Positions 42,792-56,129 of a stretch of DNA of 56,129 bases are shown here, piece after piece (positions within the stretch are counted from its first letter, which is position 1; each line of letters begins with the position of its first letter). The DNA is from an uncultured Opitutaceae bacterium (lineage in GTDB: Bacteria; Verrucomicrobiota; Verrucomicrobiia; Opitutales; Opitutaceae): NCBI GenBank assembly GCA_903919205.1, contig CAIXHE010000041.1, positions 1-56,129 of the forward strand. The letters run 5' to 3'. Made by a program: the position numbers and the translations under genes. The notes below the pieces were generated by a model that was not told the origin of the DNA, did not search any database, and saw only the letters and a program-made list of their open reading frames with translations.

Positions 42792-43355
42792 TCAGGCGGC
42801 GAGGTGAGGCCACACGGTCGCCACGACCTTTTCCGGCATCGCTGCCGGGACCGAGCCGTGGAGCAGCCGGTGGTGCATCAGGGGGCCCGCGAGCAGGTCT
42901 ACGGCCAGGGTGAGATCGAGGTCCCCGCGCAGTTGCCCCGCCTTTATGGCGGCCCGAATGATCGAGATCAGGGAGCAGTTCGGCGCATGGTCGAACAGGG
43001 CCTTGGTGACCGCCCGGCAGAACTTCGGGTGCATGCTCGAGTAGCTGAAGATGTTGGGCCAGATCCGGCCGAACATCTTGCGCGAATCCCTGACAAAGAT
43101 GTCGCTGAGCACCTGGGTCGTGTCCTTGCGGAAGTCGCCGGAATCGGCCACCGGTTGGGTGGCCAGCATTTGCCCCACGACCTCGAGCAACAGGGCCTCC
43201 TTGTCCGCCCAGTGCGTGTAGAGGGTCCCCTTGCTGGAGCCCGCGGCGCGGGCGATCGCGTCCGTCGTGATCTTCTCGATGGGCTGCCGGGTCATCAACG
43301 TGACGAAGGCGTTGATGATGGACTGGTGCGCTGCCTTGCTGAGGGTTCGGGCCAT
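42792..43355 (-). CDS. TetR-family repressor of the efflux operon
   Basis: 187 residues. N-terminal HTH: KITTDAIARAAGSSKGTLYTHWADKEALL. The C-terminal ligand domain is all-helical and unassigned. It lies 53 bases after the outer-membrane factor gene on the same strand, as the fourth gene of the efflux set. No operator-like palindrome precedes it, so it is probably transcribed from the operon promoter near 49261-49289, whose palindrome is a likely binding site (autoregulation). The ligand is unknown. Confidence 0.88.
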   Translation of the reverse strand: MARTLSKAAHQSIINAFVTLMTRQPIEKITTDAIARAAGSSKGTLYTHWADKEALLLEVVGQMLATQPVADSGDFRKDTTQVLSDIFVRDSRKMFGRIWPNIFSYSSMHPKFCRAVTKALFDHAPNCSLISIIRAAIKAGQLRGDLDLTLAVDLLAGPLMHHRLLHGSVPAAMPEKVVATVWPHLAA

Positions 43356-43408
43356 GGAGGGATCGACGCGTGGGGACCGGGGTCGGGGCGAGGGATCGAG
43401 CGAAGCGC

Positions 43409-44848
43409 CTAGGGGGTCGCCGCGGCGTCGCTTGTGTGCTCGTTCCAGCCTCCTCCAAGGTCCTCGTAGAGGGCAACCAGGTTCGTCAGGCGGGCGAGCC
43501 TCGCCTGCACCAGGCCCTGCTGCGCGGCGTAGAGGGTGCGCTGGGCGTCGAGCGCGGACAGGTAGCTGTCCACCCCGTGGCGGTAGCGCGCCTCGGCAAG
43601 GGCGTAGGCGCTCTGGTCGGCCTCGACCAGCGAGCGCTGGGCCGACACCTGCGTCTCGTAGAGCGTGCGGGCCGTCAGGGCGTCGGACACCTCCTGGAAC
43701 GCCGTCTGGACCGCCTTCTCGTATTGCGCCGCGGCCTTGAGCTTCTCGATCTTCGCGATGTCCAGGTTGGCCAGGTTCGTCCCCGCGTCGAAGATCGGCA
43801 GCACCACCGCGGGATTGACCGACCAGGCGGTCGAGCCGCCCTTGAAGAGGCCCGAGAAGCTAAGGCTTTCCGTGCCCCCCGAGGCCGTGAGCGTGATCTT
43901 GGGAAAGAAGGCGGCCCGGGCGGCGCCTATGTTGGCGTTGTAGGCCTTGAGCATGTGCTCGGCCTCCAGGATGTCGGGACGACGGTTGAGGAGGCTCGAG
44001 GGCAGCCCCGCCGGCAGGTCGGCGAGCAGGCCGTCGTCGGCGAGGTAGCCGGGCCTGCCGGCCGCGTCGGGAAGCGGCTGGCCAACCAGCACCGCCAGCT
44101 GCGTCAGGGTTGCGGCATGCTGGCGCTCGAGCGACGCCACGTCGGCCCTGGCCGTGAACACCTGCCCCTGGGCGGTGCGGAAATCGAGCTCGGAGGAGCT
44201 GCCTACCTCGTAGCTTCTCTGGGTCAGGCGCAGGGAGCTCTCCTGGGCCTCGAGGGTCTTGCGCGCCACCGCGACCTCCTCCGCGAGCGCCCGCTCGGTC
44301 AGGTATTCGGTCGCCACCTGCGCCACGAGGCCCAGTTGGACGTCGCGCTGGTTCTCCTTCTGAGCGAGAAAGGTCTCGAGCGCCTGGTCCTTCAGGCTGC
44401 GGATGCGGCCGAAGAAATCCAGCTCCCAGGAGCTGACGCCGGCGCTGACGCTGTAGACCGAGTACGGATTGGCTTCGCCCGGATAGAGCAGCGATACCGG
44501 GGTCTTCGTGCGATCGAGGCTGCCCGTGGCGTCGACGGCCGGGAAGAGCGCCGCCCGCTGGATGCGGTACTGCGCCGCCACCGCCTCGACGTTGAGCGCC
44601 GCAACGCGAAGGTCCCGGTTTTGCTTGAGCGACAGCTCGATCAGGTTCTGCAGGACGGGGTCTCGGAAGAACTCCCTCCAGCCAAGGTCGGAGGCCGGCT
44701 GCGTCGCGGCCGGCGCGCCTCCCGGGGCGGCCGGGGCGGTCCAGGTCGTCGGCACCGGCGAGGCCGGCCGGGCGTATCTCGGTGCCATCGTGCAGGACGA
44801 GAGCAGCAGGCTGGCGGCAGTGGAGGCTATCAGGATGCGCGGTGTCAT
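43409..44848 (-). CDS. NodT-type outer-membrane efflux lipoprotein (cluster 2)
   Basis: 479 residues. Lipobox LLLSSC (Cys19) followed by TMAPRYARPASPVPTTW, the NodT/OprM opening. Second-half motifs LLNRRPDILEAEHMLKAYNA and GAARAAFFPKITLTAS are visible. I chose ATG 44848 because AAGG sits 8 bases before it; ATG 44854 is too close to that site. It follows the pump gene by 10 bases. Confidence 0.92.
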   Translation of the reverse strand: MTPRILIASTAASLLLSSCTMAPRYARPASPVPTTWTAPAAPGGAPAATQPASDLGWREFFRDPVLQNLIELSLKQNRDLRVAALNVEAVAAQYRIQRAALFPAVDATGSLDRTKTPVSLLYPGEANPYSVYSVSAGVSSWELDFFGRIRSLKDQALETFLAQKENQRDVQLGLVAQVATEYLTERALAEEVAVARKTLEAQESSLRLTQRSYEVGSSSELDFRTAQGQVFTARADVASLERQHAATLTQLAVLVGQPLPDAAGRPGYLADDGLLADLPAGLPSSLLNRRPDILEAEHMLKAYNANIGAARAAFFPKITLTASGGTESLSFSGLFKGGSTAWSVNPAVVLPIFDAGTNLANLDIAKIEKLKAAAQYEKAVQTAFQEVSDALTARTLYETQVSAQRSLVEADQSAYALAEARYRHGVDSYLSALDAQRTLYAAQQGLVQARLARLTNLVALYEDLGGGWNEHTSDAAATP

Positions 44849-44858
44849 GGTCATCACC

Positions 44859-47800
44859 TTAGGGGTGGCTGCCCTCGCTCGGGGTGGGTTCGGCGGGCGC
44901 AGCCGCCGCCGGGGTGGCATGCGCGGGTGCCTTGTAGGGAAAGATCCTGCGCACGAACACGAAGAAGATGGGGATGAAGAAGATCCCGAGGAAGGTGGAC
45001 GCCAGCATGCCCCCGATGACGCCGGTGCCGATCGCGTGCTGCGAGGCCGAGCCCGCGCCGTTGCTGAGCGCAAGCGGCATCACGCCCAGGATGAACGCGA
45101 ACGAGGTCATGAGGATCGGGCGCAGACGGAGGTGAACCGCCTCGAGCGTGGCCTCCACCAGGCCCATGCCCTTCTCCATCAGGTCCTTCGCATACTCGAT
45201 GATCAGGATCGCGTTCTTGGTGGCGAGGCCGACCGTCGTCAGCAGGCCGACCTTGAAATAGACGTCGTTGGGCAGCCCGCGCAGGTTGACAGCGAGGACG
45301 GCGCCGAGGATGCCGAGCGGGACCACGAGGATGACCGAGAGCGGGACGGCCCAGCTCTCGTAGAGGGCGGCGAGGCAAAGGAACACGACCAGCAGCGAGA
45401 TGCCGTAGAGGGCCGGAGCCTGCGTGCCCGACAGGCGCTCCTGGTAGGACTGGCCGGTCCACTCGAGGCCGATGCCCCTGGGAAGCTTGGACACCAGCTT
45501 CTCGACCGCGTCCATGGCGTCGCCCGAGCTGCGGCCCGGCGCCACGTTGGCCACCATGTCGAGCGAAGGCAGGCCGTTGTAGTGCTCGAGGCGCGGGGAG
45601 GCGTAGATCCACGAGAGCGTCGTGAAGGCCGAGAAGGGCACCATGGTGCCCGTCTTGTTGCGCACGTAGAGCTTGCCGATGTCCTCCGGGGACATGCGGA
45701 AGGGAGCGTCCAGCTGGAGCGTGACCTGCTGGATGCGGATGCCGTTCACGTAGTTGTTCACGTAGTAGGACCCGAAATCGGCCTGCAGGGTCGTGTTCAC
45801 GTCGCCGAGCGAAACCCCGAGCGCGGACACCTTGTCCTGATCTATGTTCACCTTGAGCTGCGGGGTGTCCTCCATTCCCTGGGGCCGCATGCCGGCCATG
45901 AGCGGGCTCTTGGCGGCCATGCCCATCAGCTGGTTACGGGCGGCCATCAGCGCCTCGTGGCCGAGGTTGGCCTGGTCCTCGAGCTCGAACTCGATTCCGG
46001 ACGCGTTGCCCAGCTCGGCGATCGGCGGCGGGTTGATCGGGAAGATGATGGCGTCCTTGATCGACGAGAGCGCCACGAAGGCCCGCCCGACGATCGCCTC
46101 GACGCGGTCGCTCGCCTTGGTGCGCTTGCCCCAGTCCGTCAGCTTGGCGAAGGCCAGCGCGGAGTTCTGGCCGCGGCCGTTGAAGCTGAAGCCCGCGAGC
46201 GAGATCAGGTTGTCGATCTGCGGCTGCTTCAGGTAGTAGGTCTCCATCTTCTCGAGCACCCCGACGGTGCGCTCCTGGGTGGCGCCGACCGGCAGGATGA
46301 CCGCCGTCACGAAGTACCCCTGGTCCTCGTCCGGGAGGAACGAGGTGGGCAGCTTGACGAACAGGAAGGCCATCAGGGCCACGATGGCGGCGAAGGCGAT
46401 CATGAGGACCCCCACCCGCTTCAGGAGGCGCCCCACGCCCGACTGGTAGTGGAGGCTGCTGGAGGTGAAGGCCCGGTTGAACCAGCCGAAGAAGCCGCCC
46501 CGCTCGTTCTTGTGGCCCTTCTCGACCGGCTTCAGCAGCGAGGCGCAGAGGGCCGGAGTGAGGGTGAGGGCGAGCGTGACGGAGAACACCATCGAGGAGA
46601 CGAGCGCCAGCGAGAACTGCCGGTAGATCGCGCCGACCGAGCCGCCGAAGAAGGCCATGGGGATGAAGACCGCGGTCAGGACGAGGGTGATCCCGATCAG
46701 GGCGCTCGTGATCTGCTCCATCGCCTTGCGGGTGGCGTCGCGCGGCGAGAGGCCCTCCTCGCTCATGATGCGCTCCACGTTCTCGATGACCACGATGGCG
46801 TCGTCAACGAGGAGCCCGATCGCGAGCACCATGCCGAACATGGTGAGCACGTTGATCGAGTACCCGAACAGGTTCATGGTCACGCAGGTGCCGAGGAGCG
46901 CGACCGGGACGACGATGGTCGGGATGAAGGTCGCCCTCAGGTTCTGCAGGAAGAGGTACATGACCAGGAAGACGAGGACGATCGCCTCCACCAGCGTCTT
47001 GATCACCTCCTCGATCGAGATGCGCACGAATTCCGACGTGTCGTAGGGATAGTCGACCTGGACCCCCTTGGGGAAGAAGCGCTTGAGCGACTCCACCTTG
47101 GCCTTGACCAGCTCGGCCGTCTCGAGCGCGTTTCCGCTCGGCGTCAGCTTGATTCCCACCGCTGCGGCCGGGTTGCCTCGGACCCGCGCCTGCAGGGTGT
47201 AGTCCTGCGCCCCGAAGGCGACGCTGGCGACGTCCCGAATGCGCACCCGGGAGCCGTCCTGGTTCACCTTCAGCAGGATCCGCCCGAACTCCTCCGGGTT
47301 CGTGAGCGTGGTCTGCCCCTGGAGGCTCACGTTCAACTCCTGGCCCTTGGTCGCGGGCCGGTTGCCCACCTGGCCCACGGCCACCTGCAGGTTCTGGGCC
47401 TGGATCGCGGAGATCAGGTCGCCCGGCGTCAGGCCGTAGCTGTTCAGCTTGTTCGGATCCATCCAGATGCGCATGGCGTACTGGGAGCCGAAGAGGTCGG
47501 CCTCGCCGACGCCCGCCACGCGGCGCACGGGGTCGAGCAGGTTGGAGTTGATGTAGTTGCCGAGCGCGGTCTCGTCGAGCGAGCCGTCGGTCGAGGACAG
47601 GGTGAAGAAGAGCAGGTAGTTGTTCGTCGCCTTCTGCACCGCGATGCCCTGCTGCTGCACGATGGCGGGCAGGCTGGGCGTCGCCAGCTGGAGCTTGTTC
47701 TGCACCTGGACCTGCGCGATGTCCGGGTTGGTCCCGGGCCGGAACGAGATCGTGATGGTCGCCTGCCCCGACGACTCGCTGGTCGACGACATGTAGAGCA

Positions 47801-48023
47801 GCCCGTCGATGCCGTTCATCTGCTGCTCGATGACGGACGTGACGGCGTCCTGCAGGGTCTTCGCCGAGGCCCCCGGGTAGGTGGCCGTGATCGAGACGGC
47901 CGGGGGGGCGATGCTCGGGTACTGGGCGATCGGCAGCTGGCGGATCGACAGCAGGCCGCCGAGCGAGATGAGGAGCGCGAGCACCCACGCGAAAACGGGG
48001 CGGTCTATGAAGAAGCGTGCCAT
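44859..48023 (-). CDS. RND efflux pump inner-membrane subunit (cluster 2, AcrB-like)
   Basis: 1054 residues, HAE1 family. [19 protein letters not shown] is the standard start. Proton-relay residues are all present: paired Asp in [13 protein letters not shown] (helix 4), Lys in [16 protein letters not shown] (helix 10) and Arg in [18 protein letters not shown] (helix 11). Porter-domain sequence such as [19 protein letters not shown] is typical of multidrug pumps of the AcrB/MexB type. Middle gene of the adaptor-pump-channel operon, 24 bases after the adaptor. Confidence 0.95.
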
Positions 48024-48047
48024 GGGATGCGGGGGTCGTGTGGGGGG

Positions 48048-49250
48048 TTACTTGGCGGCGGGTGCCGCCTGGGGCGCGTAGGGCACCGCGGTCACGGGCG
48101 CCCCCGGGCCGATCTTCTGGAGTCCCTCGACGATCACGCGGTCGCCCGGCTTCAGGCCCCCGAGCACGATCCAGGAGTCGCCCTGCAGGGATCCCAGCTG
48201 CACCGGGCGCACCTCGACCTTCCCCTGTGGGTCGACCAGCATGACGGTGGCGGAGCCGTCCGCCTGGTGCTCGACGCCGATCACCGGCACGGTGAGCGCG
48301 TTCTGGTCCTCGGCCTGCTCGAGGCGGGCGCGGGCGAACATGCCGGGAAGCAGCAGGTGCTCCGGGTTGGGGATCTCCGCGCGCAGCGTGACCATGCCCG
48401 TCGTCTGGTCGACCGTGACATCCGAGAACAGGAGCCGGCCGGAGTGGGAGTAGACCGAGCCGTCCTCGAGGACGAGCGTCACCTTCGTCTGCCCCGGGGC
48501 GATGCTCTTGAGCTCCCCCTTCTCCACCTGCCGGCGCAGCCGCAGGAGGTCGGCGCTTGACTCGGTGAAGTCGAAATAGATCGGGTCCAGCTGGGTTACG
48601 GAGGTGATCTCGGTCGCCTCGGTCTGGCCCACGAGGGCCCCCTCGGTGACGAGGGCCCGCCCGATGCGCCCCGCGATCGGCGACACCAGGGTCGCGTAAC
48701 CCAGGTTCAGACGGGCGGTGGCCACGTTCGCCCTCGCCGTCGCCACGTCGGCCTTGCCGCCGTCCACCGCCGCCACCGCGTTGTCGTAGTCCTGCTGGCT
48801 GACCGCGTGGATGGGGGCGAGCTCGCCGTAGCGGCTGGCCTGGGCCTGGTATTGGCGGAGGTTGGCCTCGGCCTTGGCCAGCGAGGCTAGGGCGCTGTCG
48901 AGGGTGGCCTGGTAGGGGGCGGGATCTATCAGGGCCAGCACCTGGTTCTCGGAGACCTCGCTGCCCTCGGTGAACACCCTCTTGGTCAGGATACCCGCGA
49001 CCCGCGCACGCACCTCGGCGACCCGGAAGGGGTTGAGCCTGCCCGGCAGTTCGGTGACGAGCGCCACCGGCTTCGCCGTGACGGTGATCACGCCCACTTC
49101 CGCGGGCGGAGGAGCCGCGGGGGCCGGCGCCTTGGAGCAGCCGGCCAAGGCGGCGAGGGCCAGTGAGGCCGCGCCGACGGCGAGGCAAACGCGCCGAAAT
49201 GCGGGTCGGGGGGATTCAGCGGCCGGTCGGGATGCGAGTGGAGCTCTCAT
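48048..49250 (-). CDS. RND efflux periplasmic adaptor lipoprotein (cluster 2)
   Basis: 400 residues, AcrA/MexA family. The signal ends in a lipobox (ALAALAGC, Cys38), followed by a Pro/Ala spacer, GRLNPFRVAEVRARVAGIL (lipoyl half), a coiled-coil hairpin, and the second lipoyl half PIAGRIGRALVTEGALVGQ. First gene of the second efflux operon. ATG 49250 lacks a ribosome site, and the predicted transcript start lies only a few bases before it. Confidence 0.93.
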   Translation of the reverse strand: MRAPLASRPAAESPRPAFRRVCLAVGAASLALAALAGCSKAPAPAAPPPAEVGVITVTAKPVALVTELPGRLNPFRVAEVRARVAGILTKRVFTEGSEVSENQVLALIDPAPYQATLDSALASLAKAEANLRQYQAQASRYGELAPIHAVSQQDYDNAVAAVDGGKADVATARANVATARLNLGYATLVSPIAGRIGRALVTEGALVGQTEATEITSVTQLDPIYFDFTESSADLLRLRRQVEKGELKSIAPGQTKVTLVLEDGSVYSHSGRLLFSDVTVDQTTGMVTLRAEIPNPEHLLLPGMFARARLEQAEDQNALTVPVIGVEHQADGSATVMLVDPQGKVEVRPVQLGSLQGDSWIVLGGLKPGDRVIVEGLQKIGPGAPVTAVPYAPQAAPAAK

Positions 49251-49260
49251 TTTAAGCAAA

Positions 49261-49289
49261 TACCGAACGGTACAGTACGGTAATGTCAA
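49261..49289 (-). promoter_or_regulatory. Efflux operon promoter with embedded palindromic operator
   Basis: Consensus -35 TTGACA (49289-49284), 17-base spacer, weak -10 TCGGTA (49266-49261). The 22 bases 49261-49282 form an imperfect palindrome (18 of 22 positions symmetric, ends TACCG/CGGTA) occupying the spacer and the -10. This is how TetR-family operators block polymerase. The likely repressor is the TetR gene at the end of the operon. Confidence 0.65.
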
Positions 49290-49477: not shown

Positions 49478-49491
49478 AGGCCCGCGGGCCT
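49478..49491 (-). terminator. GC palindrome at the end of the ACIII operon
   Basis: Perfect 14-base palindrome AGGCCCGCGGGCCT touching the last stop codon of the operon. There is no T-tract, so termination is uncertain. The rest of 49290-49477 holds no gene I can support. Confidence 0.25.
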
Positions 49492-50153
49492 CACTTGGAG
49501 GCCATCAGCACGTCCTCGGACATCTCCTTGTGGTCGCCCATCGACTTGCGGACCGCCGACACCTCGTCGGCGCTGATCGGGCCCGACTTGTTGCCCCACT
49601 CCTGGCGCACGTAGGTGAGGACGGCCGCGATGCGGTCGTCGTTCCAATTGTAGGCGGATCCGGCCACCTGGCCGAAGACGGGCATGGCGGCGGCGCTGTA
49701 GACGTGGCTCTCGACGTGCACCTCGCCCTTGAGGCCGTAGAGCACGATCTCGATCAGGCGCTTCGAGGGTCCGTTGACCCACTCAGAGCCCGCGAGCGGG
49801 GGGTAGATGCCGGCGACACCCATGCCCGTCGCCTGGTGGCAGGTGATGCACACGGCCTCGAACTGCTTCTTGCCGAGCGCCACCGGGTCGATCTTGACGA
49901 CGACCTCGCCCGTCGAGGGCTTGCCGTTCTCGTTGAACACGAGCGGGCTGTAGTGGGCCGCATAGCGGTTCAGGTAGGTGCCCGCGAAGAGGATCAGGCC
50001 CGAGAGCGTGAAGAGGATGAAGATCGGCAGGAGCCGGTAGCGCGCGCCGTTGTCGGGGTGCTCGCCGATCGCCTTCTCGTGGAGGGCGAGCACGGCGTCA
50101 TCGCTGGCCGCAGCCTGGTCCAGGCGCGGGTCGTTGTCGGGTTTCTGGCTCAT
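49491..50153 (-). CDS. Membrane-anchored monoheme cytochrome c (CcoP-like position)
   Basis: 220 residues. An N-terminal cytoplasmic tail, one membrane helix (about 41-60), then a periplasmic cytochrome c domain with CITCH (C102, C105, H106) and a probable Met ligand in AAAMPVFG. Cbb3 CcoP normally has two hemes; this has one. It starts inside the stop of the preceding gene (ATGA) and is the last gene of the ACIII operon. Likely role: shuttle electrons from the ACIII hemes to a soluble carrier or an oxidase encoded elsewhere. Confidence 0.85.
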   Translation of the reverse strand: MSQKPDNDPRLDQAAASDDAVLALHEKAIGEHPDNGARYRLLPIFILFTLSGLILFAGTYLNRYAAHYSPLVFNENGKPSTGEVVVKIDPVALGKKQFEAVCITCHQATGMGVAGIYPPLAGSEWVNGPSKRLIEIVLYGLKGEVHVESHVYSAAAMPVFGQVAGSAYNWNDDRIAAVLTYVRQEWGNKSGPISADEVSAVRKSMGDHKEMSEDVLMASK

Positions 50154-50794
50154 TTTTCACCCTCCTTGGGGGCGGCCGCGAGCGGCACCGCCTCCGGATA
50201 GTCGTAGGTCGTCTTCAGCGTCACGAGGTAGGAGGCCAGCTCGAGGGCCCGGCGCGAGGGGACGACCTCGGTGCCCGCCGGCGGGCTCAGGGCGCCCTTC
50301 AGGCTGAGGGCGTGGTCGGAGGCCTGAGCCCCGACGCCGAGCTGGCGGGTGTGAAAGAGGAAGCGGTAGGAGGGCATCCCGGGGGCACCCACGTAGAGCA
50401 GGTGCAGGAGGTCGTCCACATCCGGCGCGCTCGGCTTGCGGTCGCCCAGGTTCGTCAGGTCCGGCCCGATCCGGTAGCTCCCGAGCTGCGGGGCGGGCTG
50501 GTAGATGTAGTCGCGCGCGACGCTCTGGCGCTCTCCCCATCCGCGCGCCTGGTCCGAGCCGAAGCCGGGGCGGCGCACCTGCTGGGTGTGGCACGAGGCG
50601 CAGCCCAGGTCCCGGTAGACCAGCTGGCCCTGCGCGGCGACGCCGGGAAGCCACTGGGGATAGGACGTGCTGTCGTTGTCGTCGTAGTACGGGGCGAGCT
50701 TGCCCAGCTGGGCGTTCGAGCCGAGGACGATCCCCGCCCACGAGATCAGAAGCGCGGTGAACAGGCCCAGGAAAAAGATGACGTTGTTCTTCAC
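50150..50794 (-). CDS. CcoO-like monoheme cytochrome c
   Basis: 214 residues. One N-terminal anchor helix (about 5-25), then GCASCHTQQVRRPGFG (C65, C68, H69) and the Met ligand in GAPGMPSYRF. The stretch SVARDYIYQPAPQLGSYRIGPDL follows the pattern of cbb3 subunit CcoO (GDFVYD...GSKRTGPDL), which supports homology. The GTG start lies in a GTGA overlap with the CcoN-like gene. Its natural partner CcoN has lost its metal ligands here, so the electron acceptor must be something else. Confidence 0.85.
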   Translation of the reverse strand: MKNNVIFFLGLFTALLISWAGIVLGSNAQLGKLAPYYDDNDSTSYPQWLPGVAAQGQLVYRDLGCASCHTQQVRRPGFGSDQARGWGERQSVARDYIYQPAPQLGSYRIGPDLTNLGDRKPSAPDVDDLLHLLYVGAPGMPSYRFLFHTRQLGVGAQASDHALSLKGALSPPAGTEVVPSRRALELASYLVTLKTTYDYPEAVPLAAAPKEGEK

Positions 50795-52188
50795 GTGGCT
50801 GAGGTCTCCAGGGCCGGGGCCGGGTTGAACGTGGCGGGCGCCGAGAAGTCCGTGATCCAGCAGGCGCTGGCAAGCAGGTTGACCAGGAGGGCGATGTTGC
50901 CGACGAGGAGGATCGCCTGGGCGTAGAAGGCGCCGAGGAGCCACGGGCGGGTCTGGGCCGTGATCGTGGCAAACGACACCTTGGCGTCGAGGAGCCCCTG
51001 GCTCTGGACGTAGTAGGCCCCGCCGAGCGAGATGAGCAGGAGGAGCAGGCCGACGACGGTCGCCCCCACGTGCGCGCGCACGAGGCCCGCGCTCGTCCAG
51101 AGGTTGCCGGTGATGCGCGGCAGCGCGAAGTAGATGCCGCCGAAGAGGACCGTAGAGGCCCCGGCGTAGAGCGCCAGCTGCTGCTGGAGCGTGTCGAAGT
51201 ACGTGAACTGGGTGTGCTCGGCCACGCTGTGGAACGAGGTCACCGCGTCGACGAGCGCGCCGAGGATGTAGGCCGCCAGCCCGATCGAGATCAGCCTGGA
51301 GGCGACCCCCCGGGCGAACACCGCCCCGCGCAGGTTCAGGAACACGATGAAGGTGTGGAAGAGCAGGAGCGCGCAGGAGACGACCGCCAGGGCCGGGATC
51401 CAGGCCGGGACCGGTCCGCCGATCAGGTGGCGGCCGCCCGTCAGGCCGCCCACGAAGATCAGCGTCCAGAAGCCGAGCGACGCGAACTCGTACGAGGGAA
51501 GCACCTTGCCGGTCTCCTTCGGCACCACGAAGTAGGCCACCGAGAGGACGAGGGGTGCGATCCAGAGCGTCCATGCGCACTGGGCGTACCAGCCGGCGAT
51601 GATGGGCTGGAGGACGCCGCGCGCGGGCCACGCGAAGAGGGTCACGTGCACGACCGACAGGATCCAGGGGAAGAGGAAGAGGGCCGCGACCGCGTACCAC
51701 TGGGAGGCGTACGAGATCTTCCGCTGGCGGCCGGACCAGGCGAGGATTCCGGGCACCGCGAGGGCGGCATACGAGAAGAGGAGCACGAGGTGCACGTAGC
51801 GCGGCAGGCCGAGGAGCGTGAAGCCCGTCGAGTCGCCGTGGACGATGCCCACCAGGGCCGCGAGGACCCCGAGGTTCCAGAAGAGCCAGCCGCCGAGGGC
51901 CCAGCCCTGGCCGCGCAGGGGCTCGCCCGAGAGGCGGCCGAGCGACCAGAGGGCGAGCGCCACGCCCGCGTTGGCGAGCCAGCCGTACACAAACGAGGTC
52001 TCCGCGAGCGCGGTCACGCGCCCGTAGGTCGTGAAGGACCAGCTGTCCAGGAAATGGGGCGAGATCAGCTGGGCCGCGGCCACGAGGCCGAGGACGCCGC
52101 TCAAGGCAAGCCAGGCGACCCCGCTGCGCAGCAGGAGGATGAGCGGCACGCTCGAGGCCCGGTCGATGGGTGAGTATTCGGCCTTCAT
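50791..52188 (-). CDS. CcoN-like membrane protein lacking heme and copper ligands
   Basis: 465 residues, about 12 membrane helices, homologous to cbb3 oxidase subunit I. WYAQCAWTLWIAPLVLSVAY + FVVPK aligns without gaps to CcoN WWYGHN...YYFVPK, but the Cu-B His is Gln203. The HH pair in GPHHLHY is R253-H254 (GGRHLIGG). The cross-linked Tyr is Gly (247). The low-spin heme His of GRLRPLHTN is Ala62 (GRVTALAETS). The GHVHAG segment of high-spin heme ligands falls in FDTLQQQLALYAG (331-343), which has no His. Structural histidines of the family elsewhere (VVHVTL, VRAHVG) remain. It cannot be an oxygen or NO reductase of the known type. It is placed between act genes and two cytochromes c, with 4-base overlaps on both sides. 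Confidence 0.85.
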   Translation of the reverse strand: MKAEYSPIDRASSVPLILLLRSGVAWLALSGVLGLVAAAQLISPHFLDSWSFTTYGRVTALAETSFVYGWLANAGVALALWSLGRLSGEPLRGQGWALGGWLFWNLGVLAALVGIVHGDSTGFTLLGLPRYVHLVLLFSYAALAVPGILAWSGRQRKISYASQWYAVAALFLFPWILSVVHVTLFAWPARGVLQPIIAGWYAQCAWTLWIAPLVLSVAYFVVPKETGKVLPSYEFASLGFWTLIFVGGLTGGRHLIGGPVPAWIPALAVVSCALLLFHTFIVFLNLRGAVFARGVASRLISIGLAAYILGALVDAVTSFHSVAEHTQFTYFDTLQQQLALYAGASTVLFGGIYFALPRITGNLWTSAGLVRAHVGATVVGLLLLLISLGGAYYVQSQGLLDAKVSFATITAQTRPWLLGAFYAQAILLVGNIALLVNLLASACWITDFSAPATFNPAPALETSAT

Positions 52189-52526
52189 GGGGTGGGCTTC
52201 GGCGCGTTCTCCTGGATCACCAGGTCCATCGCGCGGTCGAGGGGCAGCTGCACGACGCCGTTCGCCTTGTCGACCCAGCCATAGGCCGCGGCCTGGTCCG
52301 CCTGCTTCTGGCGGAGCGAGAGCAGGTAGGCCCGGCGGCTGTCGTGGGTCGCCCTCCAGGCGAGGTCCTTGGGCAGGTGGTCCGGGGCCTCGTTCTGGGG
52401 CTCGGCCGGCAGGGTCGGCAGGTAGTAGGAGCGCGCCAGGACGCCGAAGATCGCGAGGAGCACGAAGATGCCCGCGACCGCGAGGGTCGAGACCGGGCGT
52501 GGGCTGGGTGAAGGCGTATCACTCAT
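52185..52526 (-). CDS. Small one-helix protein of the ACIII operon
   Basis: 113 residues. A cytoplasmic Ser/Pro-rich start, one membrane helix (about 14-33), then a periplasmic part with a charged middle and the conserved-looking YGWVDKANGVVQLPLDRAM. The YGWVDK...VVQLPLDRAM pattern resembles the short protein or domain that often accompanies ACIII and caa3 genes; I give it no symbol. It overlaps actF by 8 bases and the CcoN-like gene by 4. No heme motif is present. Confidence 0.75.
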   Translation of the reverse strand: MSDTPSPSPRPVSTLAVAGIFVLLAIFGVLARSYYLPTLPAEPQNEAPDHLPKDLAWRATHDSRRAYLLSLRQKQADQAAAYGWVDKANGVVQLPLDRAMDLVIQENAPKPTP

Positions 52527-53727
52527 CGTGGTTCAGGCATTCGCCGATGCGGGGGTCGCGGATGGGGATCAGCTTGGTCGTCGGCAGGTCGCGCAGGTAG
52601 GCCCAGATCGAGATGCCCCCGATGCCGATCACCGAGGTTGCGGCCCAGAGCAGGTTGAGCGAGAAGAACGGCAGCGGGTGGCCCGTCGGGTCCTTCAGGG
52701 CCGGCAGGATGTTGTACGTGATGTCGACGAAGACGACCGTGAGGACGAAGTACGCGATCCGGCGAATGATGCGGTGCGTGACCTTGAAGCGGTACGAGAG
52801 CAGCAGGAGGAACGGCAGCAGGAAGTTGCCGAACACGAGGAAGAGGCTCACGTACCACCAGTCCTTGTACTCGCGGATGTTGTACCAGAAGGTCTCCTCG
52901 GGGACGTTGGCGTTCCAGATGAGGAAGTACTGCGAGAAGGAGATGTAGGCCCAGAACACCGTGAAGGTGAGCATCAGTTGGCCGATCGCCCAGAGGTGGT
53001 CGGTCTTCAGGATCCCCTTCAGGTCGCCGCGCGCGTAGAGCCAGAGCTGGATCAGCACGCCGCAGGAGAGGGCGCCGCGCATGCAGTCCGAGAAGTACCA
53101 CACGCCGTACATGGTCGAGAACCAGTGGTACTCGAGGCTCTTGTACCAGTAGATGGCCGCGAAGGTGAGGGTGAGCGCCACGATCGGGATGCCGAAGCCG
53201 GCCGTGCGGCCGTTCATGCGTGTCCACTTGACGTCGCCGTCCTGGTCCTGGCTGAAGGACGCCTTGCGCAGGCGCGAGCTGATCCAGATCCAGAGGGCGA
53301 AGAAGCCGAGCGAGGCGATGACGAAGAACGGCAGGTTGAGGAAGTCGGACTTCTTCTCGTAGAGGATGTCCGTTCGCACGGTGTGAACCGCGTTCACCTG
53401 GTGGGCCGGGTTCATCCAGGGCCAGATCGTGTCCTTGGCCCCGAGGAACGACACCGCAATGAGAGGCAGGAAGAGCAGCAGGAGCCACGGGAAGGCGGCC
53501 ACCCCGTGCTCGAACTGCCGGCGCAGCACCACCGACCAGGAGGCGTCGAAGATGTGGTGGATGAGGATCAGCATCAGCATCCCGATGGCGATCGCCGTCC
53601 AGAAGCCTATCCCGACCAGCCAGGCGGTCGCGACCACGTGGGCTCCCGAGACGAGGAGGCCCGCGGCCGTCACCGCGATGCCGGCCAGGCCGATTCCCAG
53701 GGCCTTTGAAGTGGAGGGAGGGGTCAT
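52519..53727 (-). CDS. actF: Alternative Complex III subunit ActF
   Basis: 402 residues, integral membrane protein with about ten helices and no cofactor motif. GVLxxHHIFDASWSVVLRRQFEH-type sequence after the second helix (IHHIFDASWSVVLRRQFEH) and the PAHQVN stretch are typical of ActF, a relative of ActC/NrfD. It helps bind menaquinol or form a proton path; the exact role is unsettled in the literature I know. ATG overlaps the actE stop by 4 bases. Confidence 0.88.
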   Translation of the reverse strand: MTPPSTSKALGIGLAGIAVTAAGLLVSGAHVVATAWLVGIGFWTAIAIGMLMLILIHHIFDASWSVVLRRQFEHGVAAFPWLLLLFLPLIAVSFLGAKDTIWPWMNPAHQVNAVHTVRTDILYEKKSDFLNLPFFVIASLGFFALWIWISSRLRKASFSQDQDGDVKWTRMNGRTAGFGIPIVALTLTFAAIYWYKSLEYHWFSTMYGVWYFSDCMRGALSCGVLIQLWLYARGDLKGILKTDHLWAIGQLMLTFTVFWAYISFSQYFLIWNANVPEETFWYNIREYKDWWYVSLFLVFGNFLLPFLLLLSYRFKVTHRIIRRIAYFVLTVVFVDITYNILPALKDPTGHPLPFFSLNLLWAATSVIGIGGISIWAYLRDLPTTKLIPIRDPRIGECLNHDE

Positions 53728-54377
53728 TGTAGTCCGATCTCCGCCTTGTGGTCAGCCGGCACGTCCGAGACGCTCCCGGTCTGCGCCCTCTGCAGCGCGC
53801 GGACGTAGGCCACGACGGCCCAGCGGTCGTCGGGGGCGATCTTGTCCGCGTACGGGAGCATGTTGCCCTTGCCGTAGGTGATCGTGTTGAAGATCTCGCC
53901 CTCGGCCATCTTGCGCAGGCGGTCGTCGTGGTAGGTCGGCACGGCGCCCATGCCGTACTTCTTCGTGATGCCGTTGCCGTCGCCCACGCTGCCGTGGCAG
54001 GGCGAGCAGTAGATCGTGAAGCGGTCGCGGCCCCGCTCGAGCATGCGGCGGTCGACCTTGAGGACCGGCGGGAAGCCGCGGGCGAAGGTGCCGTCGGCCG
54101 CCTTGCCGCGGTAGAGGAAGTCGTCGTTGCGCAGGGGCTGCCCCGCCGGGCCGAAGCTCGAGGCGACCGTGCCCTCCGGGGCGACGCGGTCCGAGCGGCC
54201 GTCGGCGAAGAAGGCGCTCTCGGTCTGCTGCACGTGGTGGGGCTGGTACTTCATGCCCGGGAAGAGCCACTCCGGGAACACGTCCATCGGGGGATGGGTG
54301 AAGGTCCTGCCGCGGAAGCCCAGGATCGAGACGGTGAGCACGCAGACGAAGGCGGTGAAGAGGTAGACGTAGCGCAT
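53724..54377 (-). CDS. actE: Alternative Complex III monoheme cytochrome c ActE
   Basis: 217 residues. An N-terminal signal or anchor helix (3-20), then a periplasmic cytochrome c domain with IYCSPCHGSVGDG (C124, C127, H128) and a Met ligand probably in GNMLPYADKI. It takes electrons from the pentaheme ActA (outside the window) and passes them out of ACIII. A DxMFPEW-like stretch near the N-terminus (MDVFPEWLFPGMKYQ) is a known ActE feature. It starts 3 bases after actD. Confidence 0.9.
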   Translation of the reverse strand: MRYVYLFTAFVCVLTVSILGFRGRTFTHPPMDVFPEWLFPGMKYQPHHVQQTESAFFADGRSDRVAPEGTVASSFGPAGQPLRNDDFLYRGKAADGTFARGFPPVLKVDRRMLERGRDRFTIYCSPCHGSVGDGNGITKKYGMGAVPTYHDDRLRKMAEGEIFNTITYGKGNMLPYADKIAPDDRWAVVAYVRALQRAQTGSVSDVPADHKAEIGLQ

Positions 54378-54380
54378 GGC

Positions 54381-54914
54381 TCAGTTCTCGATCTCCACGA
54401 TCTGCTTGCCGCCCGCCTTCTCGAGGAGGGCGCGGGTGTTGGCGGCGTTGAACCGCGGGTCGGTCTTCTCGATCACGAGGAAGAACTGGTCGTCGGTGCC
54501 CCGCCGGATGTGCTCGTAGTTGAGCACCGGGTGGTAGTGCATCGGCAGGCCGTTCAGGACGAACATGCCCCCGATGGTCGCGAAGGCGGTGAAGAGGATC
54601 GTGAGCTCGTAGGATACCGGGAAGGCGAAGAGGGGGCTGAAGAGCGGCTTGCCGCCGACCGTGATCGGGTAGTCGAACTTGTCCATGAACCAGATCATCG
54701 ACATGCCCGTGCAGAAGCCCGTGATGCCGCCGCAGAGGGAGATCCTCGGCACCCGCGAGCGGCCGATGCCCATCGCCTTGTCGAGGCCGTGGATCGGGAA
54801 CGGGCTGATGCAGTCCCAGCGGCGGTAGCCCGCGTCGCGCACCAGTTCGGCGGCGTGGTAGAGATCCCCGGGGGTCTCGAAGGTGGCGATCAGTCCGTAG
54901 GTGGATTCAGGCAT
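54381..54914 (-). CDS. actD: Alternative Complex III subunit ActD
   Basis: 177 residues, DUF3341 family. The cytoplasmic N-terminal domain has YGLIATFETPGDLYHAAELV and the hallmark CISPFPIHGLDKAMG; two membrane helices follow (about 60-80 and 95-120), then a soluble tail. It is a structural subunit of ACIII with no cofactor. Nine bases separate it from actC. Confidence 0.93.
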   Translation of the reverse strand: MPESTYGLIATFETPGDLYHAAELVRDAGYRRWDCISPFPIHGLDKAMGIGRSRVPRISLCGGITGFCTGMSMIWFMDKFDYPITVGGKPLFSPLFAFPVSYELTILFTAFATIGGMFVLNGLPMHYHPVLNYEHIRRGTDDQFFLVIEKTDPRFNAANTRALLEKAGGKQIVEIEN

Positions 54915-54923
54915 GGCCGGGGC

Positions 54924-56129
<1,206 letters not shown>

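Follow-up and report, generated by a model that had tools for sequence, protein, structure and literature searches.

What does a CcoN-like oxidase subunit do in an ACIII operon once nearly all of its metal-binding residues are gone? The question is raised by a gene, here called N, from an uncultured Opitutaceae bacterium (assembly GCA_903919205.1, contig CAIXHE010000041.1). The window, by which we mean the whole stretch of DNA that was analysed, is 56,129 nucleotides long and is the entire contig (C41) of a 3.26 Mb genome that is 87.7% complete and is spread over 174 contigs. Besides N, this genome encodes two A-type COX1 proteins and one complete CcoN.

Metal-site residues and predicted fold of N

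To place the ligand columns, N was aligned with solved CcoN chains (phmmer, 3mk7 E 6e-7) and with the CcoN-CcoO fusion of the same genome (L003), in which every ligand is present. The positions obtained were as follows.

50791..52188, minus strand: N, predicted CcoN-fold pseudo-oxidase subunit of 465 aa, ATG start, six of seven metal-site residues replaced
52003..52005, minus strand: codon of A62, at a low-spin heme b histidine column by alignment
51580..51582, minus strand: codon of Q203, at a CuB histidine column by alignment
51427..51450, minus strand: codons 247-254, with G247 at the active-site tyrosine column and R253 and H254 at the CuB His-His columns by alignment
51178..51186, minus strand: codons 335-337, with Q335 at the heme b3 histidine column and Q337 at the second low-spin histidine column by alignment

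Where an intact protein reads HHYHHHH, N of the window reads AQGRHQQ. The initial annotation had traced the low-spin histidine to A62, the CuB histidine to Q203, the tyrosine to G247 and the His-His pair to R253-H254, and had seen no histidine in residues 331-343; the alignments reproduced each of these assignments, the HxH of the last stretch being Q335/Q337. That annotation had also named histidines at the ligand positions as the observation that would overturn it, and on realignment six of the seven residues were still absent. H254, at one CuB ligand position, is the sole metal-site residue left, and most near relatives keep it too. Pairwise and multiple alignments concur and Foldseek confirms the fold, which ruled out alignment error as the source of the ligand loss.

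Pfam COX1 matched N at 2.3e-25, and the NCBIfam ccoN equivalog model gave 58 bits, below its cut-off of 583. An AlphaFold2 model built on an alignment of 42 sequences reached a pLDDT of 90.6 and a pTM of 0.91 (prediction without an alignment gave a pLDDT of 50), and in a Foldseek search of the PDB its top seven matches were CcoN chains, with TM-scores of 0.86-0.89, followed by nitric oxide reductases. As modelled, N has the CcoN fold. Below, N proteins with all seven residues are called intact and the others lost.

The ACIII operon and the cytochromes beside N

The genes around N in the window are these.

49491..50153, minus strand: P, CcoP-like mono-heme cytochrome c, heme site CITCH
50150..50794, minus strand: O, CcoO/FixO-like mono-heme cytochrome c, heme site CASCH, starting with GTG, with what looks by eye like an N-terminal TM helix
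52185..52526, minus strand: small protein encoded between the ActF and N genes, with one apparent TM helix by eye
52519..53727, minus strand: ActF, named by position and length
53724..54377, minus strand: ActE, mono-heme cytochrome c, by profile match and position
54381..54914, minus strand: ActD, Pfam ActD 1.1e-64
54924..56060, minus strand: ActC (NrfD family), 378 aa, the open frames of relatives being mostly 460-530 aa

The order is thus ActC-D-E-F-small-N-O-P on one strand, with ActC through the 113-aa small protein upstream of N and the two cytochromes downstream, and together with the fold it bears out the claim of the initial annotation that a CcoN-like subunit sits inside an ACIII operon. 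ActC has probably lost its 5' end to the contig end, beyond which ActA and ActB would be expected. Pfam assigned the partners of N to the CcoO/CcoP type (FixO 9.9e-12; cytochrome c 3.9e-10), and neither ActF nor the small protein matched a family in Pfam or NCBIfam. By analogy, the position of the small protein may be likened to that of ActG of Rhodothermus. Further downstream on the same strand (42792-49289) lies an RND-type efflux set of outer membrane factor, pump and adaptor with a TetR-like regulator, all named by their translations.

When the loci of 122 relatives were examined, a script read ActC-D-E-F-(small or P)-N-O-P as full and ordered in 105, and an act gene lay on the strand of N in 120, the remaining two (L081, L137) stopping at contig ends; in genus g75, ActD is on a different contig from N. 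The heme c motif CxxCH is kept in O in all 123 operons counted and in P in 117 of 118, the remaining P being truncated by a contig end. In L174 (6942-7937) and other f23 operons, an extra P-like cytochrome c stands where the small protein otherwise separates ActF from N. One genome (G002) has two copies of the operon (L037, L038), both with lost N, the second without an ActD or ActF match.

Intact and lost N among relatives

The ligands were tallied over 127 N-bearing operons from 126 genomes of the window's class. Kept out of the tally were four loci without act genes (L061, L079, L080, L188), six from other classes of the phylum (L187, L191, L193-L196) and an N fragment (G045). All seven residues are present in 34 of the 127 N proteins and N is lost in the other 93, which supplies the count of ligand-free forms among act operons that the initial annotation had proposed. 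That annotation rested on one protein; the lost state recurs, and complete-ligand relatives occupy the equivalent operon position. Since most of these residues are absent in 93 of 127 homologous operons, the ligand loss in N is not due to chance. In the window's own family (f1), the ligands are gone from N in 50 of 62 operons.

Lost N proteins keep none of the six histidines in 23 operons, one in 61, two in 6 and three in 3; no N among the 127 operons keeps four or five, and the active-site tyrosine survives in one of the 93. The lost signatures differ by lineage, being A/QQGRHQQ near the window and AHSSRRW, ANTSRRW, FEAADVQ, HSAQKFI or SESSHFV elsewhere. Two operons of family f25 (L139 and L141, HNSQRYH) have lost the b3/CuB residues but retain the two low-spin heme b histidines, and from their sequences they look like an intermediate state.

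A sample of 387 genomes drawn evenly across the phylum held 94 of the window's class with an ActD match below 1e-40, the weak matches of genus g65 (E 1e-9 to 1e-19) being excluded. N was read in 92 of these 94, 65 lost and 27 intact; no N was obtained from G063 and G409 despite a strong ActD match. With O as bait, the best 80 of 574 confirmed matches included N at 79 loci, 78 lost and one intact (L266), and the 80th locus starts 61 bases ahead of O. These best 80 are labelled Opitutaceae, Opitutae, Opitutus or Verrucomicrobia and are mostly metagenome genomes; many are assemblies already among the 127, and they were not added to the tally. Two of the 80 come from cultured strains, Cephaloticoccus primus CAG34 and C. 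capnophilus CV41, and each carries lost N.

N-like genes also occur away from act genes. In three genomes of the window's family (L079, L080, L188) a second N-O pair has the full set of seven residues, and the stretch read around it contains no act gene; this pair belongs to a distinct family with YMHQG and GTHHF motifs. Genome G025 has an additional intact N near coxB-coxA (L061), with no act genes in the stretch read, as well as an intact ACIII operon (L051).

Selection and residue conservation in lost N

The initial annotation had taken the clean reading frame of N as a sign of selection, and the substitution pattern agrees: over 22 pairs of lost N, some sharing rows, NG86 dN/dS had a median of 0.092 (0.041-0.25). 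O and P of those operons gave the same median, 0.092, over 22 and 19 pairs, and intact N gave 0.062 over the five of 11 pairs with usable dS, of which L193/L194 come from a more distant family of the same phylum. Given these low values, lost N is constrained rather than decaying, and neutral decay is ruled out, none of the 22 lost pairs exceeding a dN/dS of 0.25. Branches to lost N are long in the N trees, as they would be for a decaying relic carried along in the operon; against that reading, besides the dN/dS values, of the 79 N found with the O bait (best 80 of 574 matches) 78 are at least 442 aa long, the exception (L274) being split across two frames, and N, intact or lost, was found in nearly all of the strong-ActD genomes of the class. 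We regard a relic as barely credible. Catalytic residues gone while purifying selection persists is the pattern of a pseudoenzyme, and by sequence lost N would be one.

Among 169 columns that are nearly invariant in intact N, 57 are kept in at least 80% of 52 lost genera. Another 50, all seven ligand columns among them, are kept in at most 35%. R59, E124, W199, H327 and R420 vanish together with the ligands, R59 and E124 being heme-propionate and calcium-site neighbours in CcoN. The only histidine among the intact-conserved columns that 80% of lost genera keep is H373. This bears on whether lost N might still hold one heme b, through old or other ligands, and relay electrons by it. The f25 pair, with both low-spin histidines, is what such a relay would look like, but those two operons are the only ones of the 93 to keep both, and the joint disappearance of R59 and E124 with the ligands, together with H373 as the sole such histidine, speaks against it. 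A one-heme relay is very improbable, and lost N would generally be expected to lack heme.

The residues that took the place of the ligands are themselves conserved in the main Opitutaceae group (GWxxQ, GGRHLxG, TQFT..AQxQLA). This conservation and the low dN/dS would suit an emptied heme-copper site put to new use, with N binding quinone, lipid or another cofactor, or conducting protons, in a manner coupled to ACIII. Replacements nevertheless differ by lineage, as the signatures AQGRHQQ, AHSSRRW, FEAADVQ, HSAQKFI and SESSHFV illustrate, and since they vary in this way no common chemistry suits all lost N. The quinone or cofactor site offered in the initial annotation thus finds no support, the old metal-site residues being variable; a use within a single lineage is conceivable, and as a general account we judge reuse of the site to be rather unlikely.

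Synteny and constraint would also fit a role for N in assembling or regulating ACIII, or in maturing O and P, rather than as a stoichiometric subunit of the working complex. The residues kept in lost N, however, resemble retention of a whole fold, and relatives at the equivalent operon position have full oxidase residues; such a role seems to us quite improbable.

Number of losses

On a tree of Act proteins from 99 operons (quick LG+G4, SH-aLRT support only), the intact/lost state needs 14 changes, 12 of them forced by starred branches, against a shuffled mean of 26; ligand loss is therefore recurrent. If regain is disallowed the same tree requires 19 losses, and a constraint that unites all 69 of its lost rows is worse by 2467 log-likelihood units (p-AU 9e-53). 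The 28 of the 127 operons left out of it were 15 selected near-copies, L067 (split frames) and those without Act genes or added later. An earlier Act tree of 46 operons had given 11 changes, 8 forced, with 349 of 500 shuffles as low, so that the label was no more clustered there than when shuffled; a tree of O and P from 44 operons gave 6 changes, 2 forced.

The N tree conflicts with this picture. It gathers 36 lost N proteins in one clade (92/98), and with the ligand columns removed there is still one clade, of 32 rows, with support of 96; judged from sequence, such a clade would contradict many separate losses, unless it is an artefact of long branches. When the N tree was limited to 34 intact and 8 chosen lost N, four separate losses appeared, the eight having been hand-picked, mostly for a close intact match, which leaves the p-value of this result not unbiased. 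A single loss, as the full N tree would have it, is ruled out by the Act proteins and by the N tree with 8 lost rows.

BLAST comparisons were made for 40 lost N proteins. Twelve matched an intact N best, four more did so once their own sister or genus was excluded, and 24 were closest to another lost N outside the closest sister or from another genus, often of their own genus or family. The clearest case is L138 (f11), which is 62% identical to an intact N of its own family and 48% to its best lost match. We conclude that the ligands appear to have been lost independently at least four times, and perhaps many more. Long-branch attraction seems the best explanation of the tree conflict, and transfer of the N-O-P module could lie behind part of it.

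Other oxidases in the genomes

Intact N is the sole COX1-family gene in three of 34 genomes (G041, G046, G192) and lost N in none of 92 (Fisher p 0.018, kinship ignored). Searches of those three genomes for COX2 and cytochrome bd gave no match, G041 being 80% complete. Given that intact N is the only COX1-family gene there, it is probably a working oxidase. All 92 lost-N genomes hold another COX1-family gene, with a best match of E 1e-68 or better.

Within flanks of 4-5 kb, 27 of 93 lost operons and one of 34 intact ones (L135) are followed by A-type cox genes of the same strand. The lost operons concerned are 13 of 15 in f23, all six in f27, all five in f24, both in f31 and the one in f29, where only coxB was in reach; in the two loci inspected, L174 and L151, coxA is the very next frame past P. 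An A-type oxidase of f23 and f27 without a CuA subunit, with the cytochromes substituting, was considered and ruled out, COX2 lying about 3 kb past COX1 in 16 of 16 genomes searched. For f1, the flanks of every ACIII operon were read and held no cox gene, so synteny does not fix the receiving oxidase in the window's family. Four genomes have a second ActD within about 5 kb of another COX1, apart from the N operon (G072:C1:3970724, G180:C1:270315, G189:C45:123872, G289:C232:141342), probably marking a second, ordinary ACIII-oxidase cluster.

The f24 genomes may represent Methylacidiphilum, and pmoA-type genes were found in all six that were searched. N is lost in the five pmoA-bearing ones that have it (L192, ADAAHQT; L282-L285, SESSHFV), and in G063, of the same family, the search gave no N match. 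The other COX1 matches of these five genomes would be A-type-like and B-type-like, as assigned by score, together with a candidate for a second C-type oxidase (E about 1e-58, read in four of the five). That candidate was rejected, as it looks NorB-like in its stretch HLWVEATWE, a NorB-type motif.

The review PMC8498564 credits verrucomicrobial methanotrophs with cbb3, aa3 and ba3 oxidases, and names them and Opitutaceae as the only groups in which a C-type oxidase accompanies ACIII. On our reading of the sequences, the methanotroph cbb3 entry in that text would be the ligandless N gene, and some verrucomicrobial genes reported as "cbb3 oxidases" probably do not encode oxidases.

Proposed role of lost N

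We consider it fairly likely, from sequence evidence, that lost N is a pseudo-oxidase kept as a membrane scaffold for cytochromes that carry electrons from ACIII to another oxidase. The ancestor of N would be subunit I of a cbb3-like oxidase of the C family whose genes stood with those of ACIII in Verrucomicrobia; in the intact state ACIII and N-O-P presumably form a quinol-to-oxygen machine. In many lineages N has shed the active-site tyrosine and the residues for CuB and for both hemes, low-spin and b3, while the fold and the two cytochromes stayed. Lost N would most likely serve in the membrane to keep O and P beside ACIII, possibly in a physical complex with it, and electrons would pass from ActE through O and P to a separate oxidase, which in some members of the class may be the A-type enzyme encoded in the operon itself and in others an aa3 or cbb3 enzyme from elsewhere in the genome.

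We prefer the scaffold and relay model because the lost forms have no new site in common; their common features are the fold, the cytochromes and the operon position. The structural partner between ACIII and cytochromes c that the initial annotation had imagined is upheld as far as synteny goes, the heme sites being kept and A-type cox genes lying downstream in part of the operons. The broader statement, that between at least four times (from the sequence of N itself) and about 19 times (from operon evidence) subunit I became a metal-free scaffold linking ACIII to another oxidase via two cytochromes, and that the "cbb3 oxidase" of Methylacidiphilum-like and many Opitutaceae genomes is this scaffold, seems to us evenly balanced between right and wrong.

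If the model holds, a core respiratory enzyme has repeatedly shed its chemistry while its shell and cytochromes stayed, and supercomplex function would be separable from catalysis. Where gene counts list the ACIII locus of these bacteria as a cbb3 oxidase, the ligands need checking, and intact and lost N in related genera offer natural pairs for studying roles of oxidase subunits beyond oxygen reduction. In the accessible parts of the open-access literature we found no report of ligand loss in this N family.

Comparison with known systems

Like CcoN (PDB 3mk7, 8smr, 9g83), N combines a modelled CcoN fold and a Pfam COX1 match with CcoO/CcoP-like partner genes, but N of the window is only about 20% identical to it and lacks six of seven metal-site residues, and no oxidase chemistry would be expected of it. 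CcoP carries two heme sites, whereas P of the window has a single one.

In the available text on R. marinus ACIII, ActE hands electrons directly to the attached oxidase, and act genes are often followed by oxidase genes (PMC5928083; PMC8361435). In the supercomplexes that ACIII forms in Rhodothermus marinus (caa3) and Flavobacterium johnsoniae (aa3), the attached oxidase is a working A-type enzyme, whereas in the operon of the window its place is taken by a C-family homologue without ligands, together with two cytochromes. The ACIII-linked "cbb3-type" oxidase of Opitutaceae and methanotrophs would be the same locus as N by position and gene type; the accessible text of PMC8498564 describes it as C-type, whereas the N proteins found here are ligandless in 50 of 62 f1 operons and in five of five pmoA-bearing genomes. 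A further likeness lies within ACIII itself, where ActF, according to PMC8076601, is an NrfD-like relative of ActC without a quinone site and so, like lost N, a relative of an active membrane subunit retained minus its active site. ActF is a regular ACIII subunit, whereas the loss in N is recurrent and intact forms persist beside it.
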